The notes below the pieces were generated by a model, which worked only from the letters and a program-made list of their open reading frames with translations, searched no databases and was not told the DNA's origin. This document shows positions 16,554 through 20,257 of a stretch of DNA of 64,000 nucleotides, in pieces. Numbering within the stretch: position 1 is the first letter of the stretch; each line of letters begins with the position of its first letter. Location of the stretch: positions 1 to 64,000 of the forward strand of contig RDYN01000029.1 in the NCBI GenBank assembly GCA_004293365.1, written 5' to 3'. The stretch comes from Oscillatoriales cyanobacterium (lineage in GTDB: Bacteria; Cyanobacteriota; Cyanobacteriia; Cyanobacteriales; Microcoleaceae). The position numbers and the translations under genes are program-made.

Positions 16554-17016
16554 TGTGTGTATGCGTGACTTGTCGATTGTGAAGACAGGTGGTTGGGGAT
16601 GGGGAATGGGTTTTTCTCGATCGCCCAAATTAGATAGTAGCTCGTTTTAATCCTAAGTTTCACAAACAATACTCTACCTTAAGGTAGATGCCTCTGTTCA
16701 ACAAGACTGATATTCACAAGTATTATCAAAAGGCGATCGCTAGTCTAGCACTGTATGTGTAAGGGCGATCGGGCCAGCCCGCACCCGCTAAATGCCCAGG
16801 ATCGAGCACCCGAGAGGATTCATGCTTGATTTTTAACTGGTTGGCAACGGGCATGATGTGCGATCGCCGGCTACTTATTGCAAAAATTTGTTAACTACTT
16901 GCACAGTTTATTGACTTTATGTTAGGCTTCTACTCAAAGTTGAGAATTCAAGCCCTAACGTCACAGTCAGGGAAAATTTCAGCTAAACGGGTGTACTACA
17001 ACAATTGGAGACAATT
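16554..17016. other. Gene-free region before the small peptide gene
   Basis: About 460 bp with several GCGATCGC-type sites but no credible long frame, RNA gene or strong promoter pair. The last 60 bases lead into a GGAGA ribosome binding site. A long leader for the peptide operon is possible but not demonstrated by sequence. Confidence 0.4.
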
Positions 17017-17169
17017 ATGTCAAAGCAAATCAACGGATCGGCTCTCAAACTGTCCCGCGCCAGCAAAATCCAAGTAGAAGTCAAGGAAATTGCCAAGCAC
17101 GCCACAGCTAAAACAATCTCTTCTGCGCTTAATGTTGATGCCGATGGCAGCGATGTTACCAACGAGTAA
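17017..17169 (+). CDS. 50-residue peptide, candidate substrate of the downstream oxygenase
   Basis: The frame runs ATG to TAA and follows TTGGAGACAATT, a good ribosome binding site. The peptide begins MSKQINGSALKLSRASK, is basic and helical-looking through about residue 34, then ends with a polar, Asp/Asn-rich tail, LNVDADGSDVTNE. That is the leader-plus-core shape of many ribosomally made peptides. It precedes, in order, a hairpin attenuator, a JmjC-type oxygenase and a thioredoxin-like ferredoxin on the same strand. I recognise no known peptide family. It could also be an ordinary small protein, and the modification is inferred from context alone. Confidence 0.6.
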   Translation: MSKQINGSALKLSRASKIQVEVKEIAKHATAKTISSALNVDADGSDVTNE

Positions 17170-17249
17170 TAGCAGGTTTTTCAGATAGACTTCCCATCTC
17201 CAAGCAAGAAGTAATAAATTTTACTCTTGTATGTCGGGAAGTATGTAGT

Positions 17250-17295
17250 AATTGAGGACAATCCTTTGCGCTTGTCCTCAATTATTAAATTTTTA
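17250..17295 (+). terminator. Hairpin with weak T-run between peptide and oxygenase genes
   Basis: A perfect 12-bp stem, AATTGAGGACAA / TTGTCCTCAATT, with a 10-base loop is followed by ATTAAATTTTTAA. Partial terminators after a precursor gene commonly make the peptide more abundant than its modifying enzymes. Confidence 0.7.
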
Positions 17296-17334
17296 ACGTT
17301 TATTGACAAATCTTCTCGTTTATTTCTGTAAATT

Positions 17335-18483
17335 ATGCGATCGATCGCGAATCTACTCAAACCATACAATCTCGAAGATTTTCTAAATAACAACTGGACA
17401 AACAAAGCAGTTGTCATTCCCAGCGAAGGGAAAAAAGACTTTGCACATTTATTTTCCTGGGAAAAACTCAACTACCTGCTAAACTTTCACGAATTAAAAT
17501 ATCCCGACATTCGCTTAGCAGTCGAAGGAAAAGTTCTCGACGCCAGCGAAAACGCCAATCTGATAAAACTGTGCCAATCTGGAGCAACTTTAATCATCAA
17601 TCAAGTTCACAAACTAATTCCCGAAATAGCTGAATTTGCGGCAGAAATAAAAGTAGATTTAGGTTATCCAAACCAAGTAAATGCCTACTGTTCTTGGCCG
17701 GAAAAACAGGGATTTTCTTCCCACTACGACACCCACGAAGTTTTCATATTGCAAACAGACGGCATCAAGCAGTGGTATGTATTTGCAGACACAATTAAAT
17801 ACCCGCTGACAGAGCAAAAATCCTCCGCATTTCCACCGCCCGAAACCCCACCGTATTTAACCTGCACTTTGCACCCCGGAGATGTGCTTTACATACCGCG
17901 CGGGCATTGGCATTATGCAGTTGCTTCAGATGAACCGTCGCTGCATTTAACATTAGGAATTCACTGCAAAACCGGAATTGATCTTTTAGAATGGTTGGTG
18001 GGTGAATTGCGGCAGAAAGAAGAGTGGCGTCAAAGTTTACCGCTGCGAATAAGTTCAGATTCCATTGATGTAAGTGTAAATAATCTAATCGCTGAATTGC
18101 ACCGCTACGCAAAAAATAAAAATCTTGGAGAAGAGTACAGCAGCTACCTTGACAGTTTAGCAAAACCAGTGGCGAAATATTCTCTCCCTCATCAAGCAGG
18201 CTTCAACATTTTTCCCTACGGGATTCAAACTAAGTTTAGAATTCCCAAGTTTCTGCGGGTGAGAATTCGCGAATTACCTGACGGGTGCGGCTACAAAGTT
18301 GTTGTTGGAGGCAAAGAAGTATCTCTGAAAGGAGTAACGGAAAAATTTATGGAGAATTTATTCCGTACAGAATTTTTTACAGGAGAGGATGTGATGGATT
18401 GGTTGCCAGATTATGATTGGGAAATAGATGTAGTGCCGCTTTTGTCGAGGCTAGTAGTTGACGGAGTGATCTTTGTTAGTTAA
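17335..18483 (+). CDS. JmjC/cupin_8 Fe(II)/2-oxoglutarate oxygenase (RoxA/YcfD-like)
   Basis: A 382-residue protein with the iron triad H130-x-D132 (FSSHYDTHEVF) and a distal histidine in YIPRGHWHYA (about H193). The sequence KQWYVF after the first strand fits a 2-oxoglutarate-binding position. The length and C-terminal winged-helix-like region (VTEKFMENLFRTEFFTGEDVMDWL) match bacterial ribosomal oxygenases such as YcfD/RoxA, which hydroxylates ribosomal protein uL16. A ribosomal target is therefore one option; hydroxylation of the adjacent 50-residue peptide is the other, suggested by gene order. The ATG at 17335 has no strong ribosome binding site. The next gene is 73 bp downstream. Confidence 0.85.
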   Translation: MRSIANLLKPYNLEDFLNNNWTNKAVVIPSEGKKDFAHLFSWEKLNYLLNFHELKYPDIRLAVEGKVLDASENANLIKLCQSGATLIINQVHKLIPEIAEFAAEIKVDLGYPNQVNAYCSWPEKQGFSSHYDTHEVFILQTDGIKQWYVFADTIKYPLTEQKSSAFPPPETPPYLTCTLHPGDVLYIPRGHWHYAVASDEPSLHLTLGIHCKTGIDLLEWLVGELRQKEEWRQSLPLRISSDSIDVSVNNLIAELHRYAKNKNLGEEYSSYLDSLAKPVAKYSLPHQAGFNIFPYGIQTKFRIPKFLRVRIRELPDGCGYKVVVGGKEVSLKGVTEKFMENLFRTEFFTGEDVMDWLPDYDWEIDVVPLLSRLVVDGVIFVS

Positions 18484-18556
18484 AACTAGAGAAGGGTACT
18501 AACTGTAATGAATGGGTTGTTAAAAGAGTAATTTATGACACATAACGAGGTAGAAA

Positions 18557-19579
18557 ATGCCGGATACTTTTTTTTGCGCCGATGCTTCTAAATGCGTTCA
18601 AGAGGATATTATTGGTACTGGTACGAATTACCAAACCTATGTATTAATTGAATGTTGTTTGCCTTGGGAATCAGAAGCTTTTAATTCCAAACAAGTCCCC
18701 CAGAATCTCAGGGATTTGGTGGAGGAAGTAGAGCATTCAAAGCAAAAAATCCGATTCTTGTTGATAAATAGCGACAAACACAAATGTGCTAACAACCGCA
18801 AAGTGTTGATTTATGACAATAAAAGTCAAGAACTTTTTGAGGGTTACGAAAAGCACGAATTTAACGCGAGTAATATTTACGAAGTAGCAGGAATTGTCAA
18901 AAGCTATTTAGCTGGGGAAGTCCCGGATTGCGAAGTGGGAAATAACCAAAGTAGAGATATTTTGGTTTGCACTCACGGGAGTCATGATAGATGTTGCGCG
19001 AGATATGGCAATCCTTTTTACGCGCAAGCAACGGCTTTGGTTTCGGAGTTAGAATTGAGTGATGTTCGTGTTTGGAAATCCAGTCATTTTGGCGGACACC
19101 GCATGGCACCGACTGCGATTGATTTGCCTGACGGTAGATATTACGGAAATCTCGATCGCATTTCGTTCAAATCTATTCTAACGCGATCGGGCGATATTGA
19201 ATGTTTGAATCAGGTTTATCGGGGTTGGGGGATTTTGCCGAACCAAATTCAGGTTTTGGAACGAGAGTTTATTATCCGCTACGGGTGGGATTGGTTCAAC
19301 TATAAAGTTTCAGGCTGTATTGTTGAAAAACATCTCGAAAATGATGGTTTTGTGGCTGAATTGACTTTTGAAAAGGTAGATGGTACGTATATCTATCGGG
19401 CTGAGTTGGTTAAAGATGAAGCTAAAACAGTCAAGTTGAAAGGTTCGTGCGGCGCTAAGCAAGAATCAGAGTTTGTCAAGTATTTGGTAAAGGATTCTTA
19501 CTTTTACTCGAAGAAAGATGAGTCAAGGTTTGTAATTTATCCTGGAATTCCGCAGCCAATATTAGTCGAGATTATGTGA
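18557..19579 (+). CDS. Sucrase/ferredoxin-like (thioredoxin-like [2Fe-2S]) family protein
   Basis: The 340-residue protein carries the Suc_Fer-like family hallmarks: CTHGSHDRCC at about 138-147, a thioredoxin-like ferredoxin cysteine pair, and HFGGHRMAP at 177-185 (the family's HxxGH-type ligand motif). Members are thought to bind a [2Fe-2S] cluster. The N-terminal ECCLPW (residues 32-37) is also conserved in cyanobacterial members as I recall. It lies 73 bp behind the JmjC oxygenase on the same strand, so it could pass electrons in the same pathway. This is inference; the family's substrate is generally unknown. Confidence 0.88.
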   Translation: MPDTFFCADASKCVQEDIIGTGTNYQTYVLIECCLPWESEAFNSKQVPQNLRDLVEEVEHSKQKIRFLLINSDKHKCANNRKVLIYDNKSQELFEGYEKHEFNASNIYEVAGIVKSYLAGEVPDCEVGNNQSRDILVCTHGSHDRCCARYGNPFYAQATALVSELELSDVRVWKSSHFGGHRMAPTAIDLPDGRYYGNLDRISFKSILTRSGDIECLNQVYRGWGILPNQIQVLEREFIIRYGWDWFNYKVSGCIVEKHLENDGFVAELTFEKVDGTYIYRAELVKDEAKTVKLKGSCGAKQESEFVKYLVKDSYFYSKKDESRFVIYPGIPQPILVEIM

Positions 19580-19627: not shown

Positions 19628-19804
19628 GTTCGTAGTGAGGACTTTAGTCCGCATCCATCCCAAGACTAAAGTCTTCACTACGAACGTTTTGATGGCGGGT
19701 AATTTTTTTTATCACAAAGAAGGACTAAAGTCCTCACTACGAACCAATTATTTGTAAGAACTCAATGTCTCGCATCAAGAAGGACTAAAGTCCTCACTAC
19801 GAAC
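19628..19804. repeat. Three palindromic GTTCGTAGT-family units
   Basis: A paired hairpin unit (19628-19685) is followed by two single inverted copies (19720-19745 and 19780-19804), each containing AAGGACTAAAGTCC. They fill most of the space between convergent genes. Confidence 0.9.
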
Positions 19805-19822
19805 GTTATATTATGACAGAAA

Positions 19823-20257
19823 TTAGAATTCTAGCTGCATGAATATGTGGGGAATTGTCAGATATTCAAAGGGATTGTCTTTTTCGACAAATCCGAGATT
19901 TTTGTAGAATTTCACGGCGTTAATGCGAGACATCAGTCTCACAGTTTTGAAATTCTTTTCCTTAGCTTGTGCTATCAATCTTTCCATCATTTTAGTGCCG
20001 ATTCCCTGGTTTTGAAATTCAGGAAGTACGGCAATATAAGAGATGCTTCCAAATTCTGGGGATAATTCTCGGAGTCTGCCCGAGCCGATAATTTTGCGAT
20101 CGCCCTTTGCTATGATATGACAAGCACCGTTTTCGCGATCGTCTCTTTCGCTGCCCCTTTCCATGCCCAGGGGCGATCGCAAAACCAACCACCGCTGGTA
20201 AAACATATCTTCTAATTCTTGTGCGTTTTTGACTGGACGTATATCTATATTTGGCAT
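19823..20257 (-). CDS. GNAT family N-acetyltransferase
   Basis: A 144-residue single-domain GNAT protein. The acetyl-CoA binding beta4-alpha3 region is YIAVLPEFQNQGIGTKMMERL (about residues 76-96), with the pyrophosphate loop QNQGIG. The C-terminal KFYKNLGF motif is also standard. The N-terminal IDIRPVKNAQELEDMFYQRWLVLR resembles the ElaA/YjcF-like subgroup. The substrate cannot be predicted. It is monocistronic, flanked by palindromic repeats on both sides. Confidence 0.92.
   Translation of the reverse strand: MPNIDIRPVKNAQELEDMFYQRWLVLRSPLGMERGSERDDRENGACHIIAKGDRKIIGSGRLRELSPEFGSISYIAVLPEFQNQGIGTKMMERLIAQAKEKNFKTVRLMSRINAVKFYKNLGFVEKDNPFEYLTIPHIFMQLEF

Follow-up and report, generated by a model that had tools for sequence, protein, structure and literature searches.

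What does a cyanobacterium make from a gene of 50 codons that is followed, on the same strand, by an oxygenase of the JmjC type and by a thioredoxin-like ferredoxin? The question is raised by a stretch of 64,000 nucleotides from an Oscillatoriales cyanobacterium (contig RDYN01000029.1, positions 1 to 64,000; hereafter, the window), in which a peptide gene, a hairpin, a JmjC gene and a Suc_Fer gene all lie on the forward strand. The answer that we favour, with a confidence barely above an even chance, is that the operon product would be an iron-responsive, JmjC-modified, aspartyl-hydroxylated and iron-binding metallopeptide, every chemical step of which is deduced from genomic evidence. Taken separately, the 50-codon gene and the oxygenase very probably form a precursor-enzyme pair, hydroxylation of aspartate (or asparagine) in the peptide is probable, and an iron role for systems of the window's kind (type A, below) is moderately probable. 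Re-reading the window reproduced the gene order, strand and positions given in an earlier sequence-only reading of this DNA, including the 73 bp between the JmjC stop and the Suc_Fer start (Suc_Fer gene at 18557-19576 plus stop). The features concerned are the following:

16878..16894, no strand assigned: Fur-box-like palindrome TTGCAAAAATTTGTTAA, preceding the peptide gene; the window's copy is weak
17005..17011, forward strand: ribosome binding site TTGGAGA, seen in the sequence, ending 5 nt before the ATG
17017..17169, forward strand: precursor peptide gene of 50 codons (coding 17017-17166 plus stop), from sequence, homologues and pN/pS
17246..17287, forward strand: hairpin with a stem of 16 bp and a loop of 10 nt, lying 76 nt downstream of the stop codon of the peptide gene
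17335..18483, forward strand: JmjC_2 oxygenase of 382 amino acids (coding 17335-18480 plus stop), from Pfam, alignment, AlphaFold and PDB match
18223..18480, forward strand: winged-helix domain, C-terminal in the oxygenase, resembling a RiPP recognition element (RRE; RiPP, ribosomally synthesised and post-translationally modified peptide), from Foldseek and profile comparison
18557..19579, forward strand: Suc_Fer-like (PF06999) thioredoxin-like [2Fe-2S] protein of 340 amino acids (coding to 19576), Pfam E 4.2e-28
19823..20257, reverse strand: GNAT acetyltransferase, convergent, from Pfam; probably part of the type A system

The pairing of peptide and enzyme is carried by comparisons among 98 related genomes, 29 genomes of the window's genus, and a census of 70 JmjC loci from 39 genera, which was drawn from the search samples (JmjC matches in 41 of 98 relatives, 23 of 386 genomes in the phylum, 4 of 9 in one family and 87 of 388 in the order), is a subset of all JmjC matches, and has flanks cut at contig ends, so that partner genes can be hidden (loci and genomes are cited by handles in L and G). 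A profile built from 22 peptides recovered the peptide family in 28 of the 98 genomes, and all 28 matches lie at most 1.3 kb upstream of a JmjC gene, with zero orphans. Of the 41 JmjC-positive genomes, 13 gave no match to the profile, several of them carrying a different precursor and one (G032) having a broken contig. No precursor was found upstream of JmjC in G047, G083, G089 and G097, and none was recognised in several cyanobacterial loci (e.g., L058, L062, L100) or in Streptomyces, deltaproteobacterial and gammaproteobacterial relatives (L138, L155, L156); L152 has one doubtful open reading frame (ORF) there. A rule combining the motif with an Asp/Asn criterion, applied upstream of genes, was satisfied at 40 of the 70 JmjC loci and at 12 of 407 other genes. 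The rule missed peptides found otherwise in the window, L048, L064, L085, L086, L088, L224 and L234, the last two having been found under other locus ids on the same contigs; with such peptides added, the Suc_Fer-type loci with a peptide rise from 20/30 to 28/30. L064 has two divergent peptides, and L186 and L187 have none.

The window peptide consists of a beta-strand-like putative recognition segment, SKIQVEVKEI, followed by an Asp-rich tail, LNVDADGSDVTNE, and is free of cysteine; most homologous genes are preceded by similar ribosome binding sites. The recognition segment is kept across genera in the pattern S-K/R-I-x-V/I-E-V-K-E/D-I (IQVEVKEI-type), and the tail occurs in one to three copies depending on the genus, as three NFDADGGDR units in Okeania-type genomes and as two NTDADGGD-like units in Scytonema, Symploca and Brasilonema. 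Multi-core RiPP precursors carry repeated cores behind one conserved segment, and the repeated tails therefore resemble such precursors. Among 13 sequences of the genus (L009 was omitted because of an indel), pN/pS is 0.23, indicating purifying selection on the frame; broken down by region, the leader has 0.20, the linker 0.39 and the acidic tail 0.11. The pattern that had been anticipated, a conserved N-terminal half with a variable tail, is thus inverted in the genus, where the acidic tail is most conserved and the linker variable. The tail is likely to be the modified part of the precursor. Linkage, repeated tails, purifying selection and the RRE-like domain described below all sustain the earlier proposal of a peptide-modification operon with the Asp/Asn-rich tail as substrate, in which the hydroxylation itself is a prediction from sequence. 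A related arrangement is seen in L063:5501-6898 (G043; also L034 in G038), where a multi-domain BOF (OB-fold) protein ends in a recognition segment and an Asp-rich tail like those of the adjacent precursors, which suggests that the system may mark whole proteins too.

The enzyme matches JmjC_2 (E 5.6e-25) and Cupin_8 (E 3.8e-8) in Pfam. Its H-x-D...H iron triad, earlier described as intact, is so by two alignments: H130 and D132 of the triad H130/D132/H193 are invariant across 26 relatives, and in alignments with NO66 and YcfD, whose corresponding triad residues bind iron, H193 falls on the third ligand; H191, though invariant, is not the aligned ligand. An AlphaFold2 model made from the 26-row alignment has a pLDDT (predicted local distance difference test) of 87. 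Its best Foldseek matches are NO66, MINA, YcfD, YxbC and FIH, the top PDB entry being NO66 (E 3.7e-24), and the best sequence matches are likewise NO66, MINA and YcfD. These matches are what speaks for a ribosomal-protein hydroxylase of the RoxA/NO66 type, beside which the small gene would be a regulatory leader or a chance ORF. We regard that explanation as extremely unlikely, given the strict peptide linkage, the pN/pS of 0.23, the protein-level repeats and a patchy distribution, JmjC being present in 15 of 29 genomes of the genus and 41 of 98 relatives. Similarity to Escherichia coli RoxA is weak (27% identity over 110 amino acids); with this distance, and with selection acting on the peptide, the outcomes that the sequence-only reading had named as refuting it did not arise. 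A RoxA-type identity was rejected on this weak similarity and the non-housekeeping distribution. Known ribosomal oxygenases (NO66, MINA53, YcfD/RoxA; JmjC_2, PF08007) share with the window enzyme the fold over most of the chain, the HxD...H triad and a C-terminal winged helix; the window enzyme differs in its dedicated upstream precursor, its patchy spread, its Suc_Fer/GNAT (or nucleotidyltransferase/BOF) partners and the lack of a housekeeping setting.

Relatives of the oxygenase also occur in other settings. One, 52% identical, lies in a YcaO/ThcOx RiPP cluster identified by Pfam (L087:6061-12899, G122), together with a Nif11-type peptide and a C39-like ATP-binding cassette (ABC) transporter, both recognised by eye. 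A distant relative lies in a lasso-like cluster, also read by eye (L094:2258-13175, G446), whose other members are three precursors of the KYGTMKEFT type and two proteins that resemble HprK and PqqD, respectively. Both placements speak for a peptide-modifying role of the window enzyme. In L102:6031-7111 (G033), two related proteins of 102-104 amino acids with alternating-Asp stretches (VDVDVDQDFNVDIDVDVDKDIDATL) precede JmjC and TPR genes. Outside the cyanobacteria, a deltaproteobacterial metagenome-assembled genome (MAG) has Suc_Fer directly behind JmjC (L155:5309-7480), with no upstream peptide recognised.

How the enzyme might recognise its peptide is suggested by its C-terminal domain, which we consider RRE-like, short of a proven RRE. 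The domain was modelled as a homologous stand-alone copy with the window's own domain included in its alignment; the model (pLDDT 88) has strands followed by helices, the PqqD-like winged-helix order. Such copies occur in tandem, partly degenerate, between the JmjC and Suc_Fer genes of Okeania/Trichodesmium-like loci (L049:8499-9125, L051, L053, L055). When the model was compared by Foldseek with 350,542 PDB chains, the seven best all came from RiPP enzyme structures, namely the McbBCD microcin synthetase (three chains), TigE, TbiB1 with leader and ThcOx (two chains), with probabilities of 0.51-1.00, TMq of 0.43-0.64 and E of 0.03-0.36; which of these chains hold a true RRE is an assumption on our part. 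In hhalign, based on small ad hoc alignments with one wrong row (L212), the domain compared with PqqD-like sequences gave P 0.0035 globally and 0.008 locally, in register, and the control with response-regulator winged helices gave P 0.38 and 0.55. Two figures from these comparisons count against the assignment: the hhalign probability is just 4-5%, and no Foldseek match reaches E<=0.001.

The JmjC loci fall into two architectures. Of the 70 loci, 30 (from 14 genera) contain Suc_Fer at a distance of at most 8 kb and 21 (also from 14 genera) contain a nucleotidyltransferase-like (NTase) gene, with no locus containing both and 19 containing neither; the NTase label denotes a by-eye sequence resemblance (GSxxxG...SDxDS), Pfam having returned no such family. 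Type A, the window's kind, combines DxDGGD peptides lacking a signal sequence with Suc_Fer and often GNAT, and type B combines signal-peptide Asp/Asn-repeat proteins with the nucleotidyltransferase. Accordingly labelled, the Suc_Fer loci have GNAT in 23/30 and BOF in none, and their 20 rule-found peptides all have a DxDGG-like tail, with none of the long signal type; the NTase loci have GNAT in 0/21 and BOF in 11, and among the 17 with a rule-found peptide, 16 peptides are of the long kind that begins with a hydrophobic stretch, and a DxDGG tail is absent from all 17. Type B repeats include QDYD, DYSRN and DQNV. Proteins that have a signal-peptide-like start and extended (NS)n or (SSN)n repeats also occur upstream of JmjC in L144 (Fischerella), L145 (Scytonema), L137 (Nostoc), L089 and L248.

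The partner genes are the first pointer to a role in iron handling. The operon copy is the only PF06999 protein found in the window strain's genome, which is 99.99% complete, and among the relatives 38 of 98 have one or more. Residues C7, C138, C147 and H177 are present in 44/44 Suc_Fer homologues, and H140 and H181 in 98%; this conservation fits the 2Cys2His site through which yeast Apd1 binds its [2Fe-2S] cluster, as given in the available text of PMC11126956. Unlike the Apd1/Aim32 proteins, the Suc_Fer proteins considered here are bacterial and stand in siderophore-like or JmjC operons, with a role that is proposed. Within the genus, Suc_Fer is present in 15/15 JmjC-positive and 1/14 JmjC-negative genomes (Fisher 2e-7, relatedness uncorrected), and GNAT in 15/15 and 4/14, respectively, lying on another contig in G014, G017 and G022. 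The exception, G025 (L204:7296-8995), has the same locus lacking peptide and JmjC, with Suc_Fer and GNAT kept, which is likely a natural loss.

Suc_Fer also occurs away from JmjC, in 17 copies, of which 16 were fetched (the other, G049:C25, is a fragment) and 13 of the 16 lie in siderophore-like loci. In eleven of the 16, a TonB receptor gene, a FecB-type gene or both are nearby (L190-L196, L198, L199, L201, L202), and L200 and L203 have a major facilitator superfamily (MFS) gene plus genes resembling those for non-ribosomal peptide synthetases (NRPS) and polyketide synthases (PKS); TonB, FecB and MFS genes were identified with phmmer from their counterparts in L086/L088, and NRPS/PKS and ABC genes by eye. 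In a tree of 44 Suc_Fer sequences, from which sequences of <=250 amino acids were excluded and in which support values were not considered, the JmjC-linked proteins of the window's kind stand beside those of siderophore loci (L190, L193, L195, L202). The Suc_Fer proteins of L086, L088/L186/L187 and L064 are placed elsewhere, that of L086 among the other siderophore-locus set, and the nesting of L189 and L204 in the JmjC-linked group suggests JmjC loss. By analogy with these contexts, Suc_Fer is proposed to be a reductase that would release iron from the peptide. The role first suggested for it, keeping the iron of the oxygenase reduced, appears less likely, given that Suc_Fer elsewhere lies mostly in JmjC-free siderophore-like loci; an obligate electron donor of the JmjC enzyme was rejected because all 21 NTase-type JmjC loci are without Suc_Fer.

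The same evidence bears on the explanation that the product is a JmjC-modified, RiPP-like peptide with no iron role, acting as a signal, a toxin or a structural element, with Suc_Fer supplying electrons to the oxygenase, or repairing it as a ferredoxin, or doing so for a further redox step on the peptide. This would account for the tight peptide-JmjC linkage, and type B, using the same kind of enzyme in the absence of Suc_Fer beside secreted Asp/Asn repeat proteins, indicates that the chemistry need not serve iron; JmjC enzymes also modify other RiPPs, as the accessible part of PMC12257519 indicates for biphenomycin-type clusters. The siderophore-like setting of the JmjC-distant Suc_Fer copies, the ability of JmjC to do without Suc_Fer in type B, and Fur-like operators enriched in type A only all run counter to it, and we consider it unlikely.

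These operators were recognised from a 17-bp palindrome, TTGAAAATaATTTTCAA, obtained by de novo motif discovery in the regions upstream of 36 genes in siderophore loci, a training set from which the peptide promoters were absent. It resembles the Anabaena FurA consensus, AAATAAATTCTCAATAAAT, reported in the consulted portion of PMC4005646. Of 38 type A promoters, 26 have the palindrome at p<0.05 and 17 at p<0.01, and in 21 of the 26 it lies between -115 and -139; of 150 control regions, upstream stretches elsewhere in these loci, 7 have it. The 38 promoters are 39 less L115, which has N runs; about 14 belong to the window's genus or its close relatives, and the set includes L060, which has peptide and GNAT but lacks Suc_Fer. 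Another type A set, which shares members with this one, gave 11/19, and type B promoters gave 1/17, with 0/4 in an earlier set. In the genus, 12 of 13 relatives tested score 11.4-15.3 bits, and 11 of 13 have the palindrome at -132 to -139. As a Fur-bound operator the palindrome is putative, its sequence being the basis.

Joined together, these elements suggest the following mechanism for the favoured iron-binding metallopeptide. Low iron would lift repression at the Fur-like operator, as the motif implies, and the peptide would be produced in excess over the enzyme, perhaps through the intercistronic hairpin. SKIQVEVKEI would then join the RRE-like domain as a beta-strand, as the fold suggests, and the JmjC domain, with Fe(II), O2 and 2-oxoglutarate, would hydroxylate Asp residues of the DxDGxD tail to beta-hydroxyaspartate, which is a bidentate Fe(III) ligand of siderophores. 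The modified peptide would chelate iron, and the Suc_Fer [2Fe-2S] protein, to judge from its siderophore-locus relatives, would reduce Fe(III) and thereby release the iron; GNAT might, more speculatively, acetylate the peptide.

Whether such a peptide leaves the cell is a separate matter. In three loci of one family (L086 and L088 by Pfam, L187 by phmmer), a TonB receptor, a Peripla_BP_2 (FecB-type) protein and an MFS protein are encoded near the JmjC gene, and in these genomes the set, with its uptake and export genes, looks like a secreted siderophore system. It is from here that the idea of a classical secreted ribosomal siderophore in the window organism as well, exported and retaken as a ferric complex, draws its support, and multi-core precursors would suit a secreted ligand. 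We consider that idea distinctly unlikely, as no exporter gene was recognised in or beside the operon, and TonB receptor and Peripla_BP_2 families were not found in the window strain; secretion with TonB uptake was rejected there for the latter reason. Trichodesmium MAGs carry the operon (L123, L124), one such MAG (G055) having a receptor on a separate contig, yet the part of PMC11171426 available to us reports that Trichodesmium lacks a TonB-dependent outer-membrane transporter and has no known pathway for siderophore synthesis. The main text of another Trichodesmium iron paper (PMC12090762) is free of the words cupin, JmjC and sucrase. With receptors missing or reported absent, an internal iron ligand, or another export or uptake route, is the more likely arrangement in the window strain and in Trichodesmium, and in the window strain the peptide more likely acts inside the cell than outside it. 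A wider formulation, which we put forward tentatively and hold at less than even likelihood, is a class of ribosomal siderophores in which JmjC enzymes with a built-in RRE-like domain would convert Asp-rich precursors with several cores to poly-beta-hydroxyaspartate Fe(III) chelators, secreted in some cyanobacteria and internal or uncharacterised in Microcoleus, Okeania and Trichodesmium, with type B applying the same chemistry to secreted Asp/Asn repeat proteins.

Several observations weigh against the iron-responsive metallopeptide. The window's own palindrome scores 7.8 bits (p=0.105), and the scan gave no such site in loci of the Moorena-, Symploca- and Coleofasciculus-like kind. TonB-type genes are near just 3 of the 70 JmjC loci, and at one of these three, L187, the JmjC gene is truncated with an internal stop and no peptide was found. 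The window strain's genome yielded no TonB receptor (PF00593, E<=1e-8) and no Peripla_BP_2 (PF01497, E<=1e-10), and a TonB receptor is present in 5 of 15 JmjC-positive genomes of the genus. Two of the 13 siderophore-like Suc_Fer contexts are weaker than the others, L189 and L204 have Suc_Fer with neither JmjC nor siderophore genes (L197 is at a contig edge), and the genome and locus counts share ancestry. Finally, DxDGxD resembles the Ca-binding loops of EF-hands and dockerins. The Asp-rich tail, modified or not, could thus bind calcium or another divalent metal in a system handling calcium or manganese; the cores DADGGD and DSDGGD agree with this, as do the acidic repeats of type B tails, one of them fused to OB-fold (BOF) domains. 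The siderophore-type partners and Fur-like operators favour iron instead, and we judge a calcium or manganese system to be very unlikely.

Set beside known systems, the proposed iron-binding metallopeptide has several partial counterparts. RRE-dependent RiPP pathways (McbBCD, TbiB1, TigE, PqqD) share an RRE-like domain, stand-alone copies of it, and short precursors that contain a beta-strand-like segment and may have several cores; here, in contrast, the sole core enzyme would be the JmjC oxygenase itself bearing the domain, whose likeness to an RRE is chiefly one of fold. NRPS beta-hydroxyaspartate siderophores share a predicted Fe(II)/2-oxoglutarate Asp hydroxylase and, in some genomes, Suc_Fer, TonB, FecB and MFS partners, but are built on an NRPS scaffold, whereas the scaffold here is ribosomal; to our knowledge, beta-hydroxyaspartate as an iron ligand is known only from NRPS products. 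In the biphenomycin group, BpmG/PbsQ is likewise a JmjC- or cupin-type protein acting on a ribosomal peptide, although, in what was available of PMC12257519, it is one of several enzymes, with a multinuclear non-haem iron oxygenase (MNIO) and others, and here the oxygenase would be the sole peptide modifier bar a possible GNAT. Bufferins and methanobactins (PMC12452194, available in part) also unite a ribosomal peptide, a non-haem iron oxygenase and metal handling, but with an MNIO enzyme, Cys-containing cores and copper, where the present system has JmjC, Asp cores and, presumably, iron; membership of these DUF692 families was rejected, the enzyme being JmjC_2 and the window peptide lacking Cys. 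For laxaphycins, the hydroxylation of Asn and Leu has been attributed tentatively to cupin-8 proteins, according to the accessible text of PMC7524897. In the open-access literature, subscription papers being mostly outside its reach, neither a JmjC-defined RiPP class nor a ribosomal siderophore was found described, and the available parts of PMC13381572 and PMC2922099 do not describe the system. It would seem to work like a ribosomal metallophore outside the MNIO families, and the siderophore interpretation, if proven, would constitute a new category.

If this account is true, it would define a new RiPP class by a JmjC oxygenase that has an RRE-like domain built in, and would mean that proteins folded like ribosomal oxygenases can take part in making peptide natural products. 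It would also provide a gene-encoded route to the beta-hydroxyaspartate iron ligand, and a testable iron ligand for iron-limited cyanobacteria such as Trichodesmium. The core repeats and the operons of two to four genes lend themselves to simple reconstitution.

The hairpin after the peptide gene is present where the sequence-only reading had placed it, with a stem of 16 bp instead of 12, but it is only partly conserved and lacks terminator features. In 7 of 14 genus loci, a stem of 12-16 bp begins 70-89 nt ahead of the JmjC gene, two unrelated stem sequences being represented; L013 has a 10-bp stem at 68 nt before JmjC, and the remaining six genus loci have other or shorter stems. An intrinsic terminator was rejected because a U-run behind the hairpin is lacking, and the hairpin is absent from the list of terminator-like sites; it may set the precursor:enzyme ratio or mRNA stability.

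No macrocyclase, dedicated transporter or dedicated protease was recognised in the operon. The tldD/pmbA-like genes nearby, identified by eye in the absence of a family search, form gene clusters common only to loci of the window's genus, and also to L204; because the linkage is found only within the genus, it looks like genus-level synteny, and the little weight initially given to these genes was appropriate. TldD/PmbA as dedicated proteases of the system were rejected for this limited linkage. Between the Suc_Fer and GNAT genes, at 19658-19804 of the window, lie three direct repeats of a 28-nt unit (AAGAAGGACTAAAGTCCTCACTACGAAC) with a spacing of 59-60 nt.

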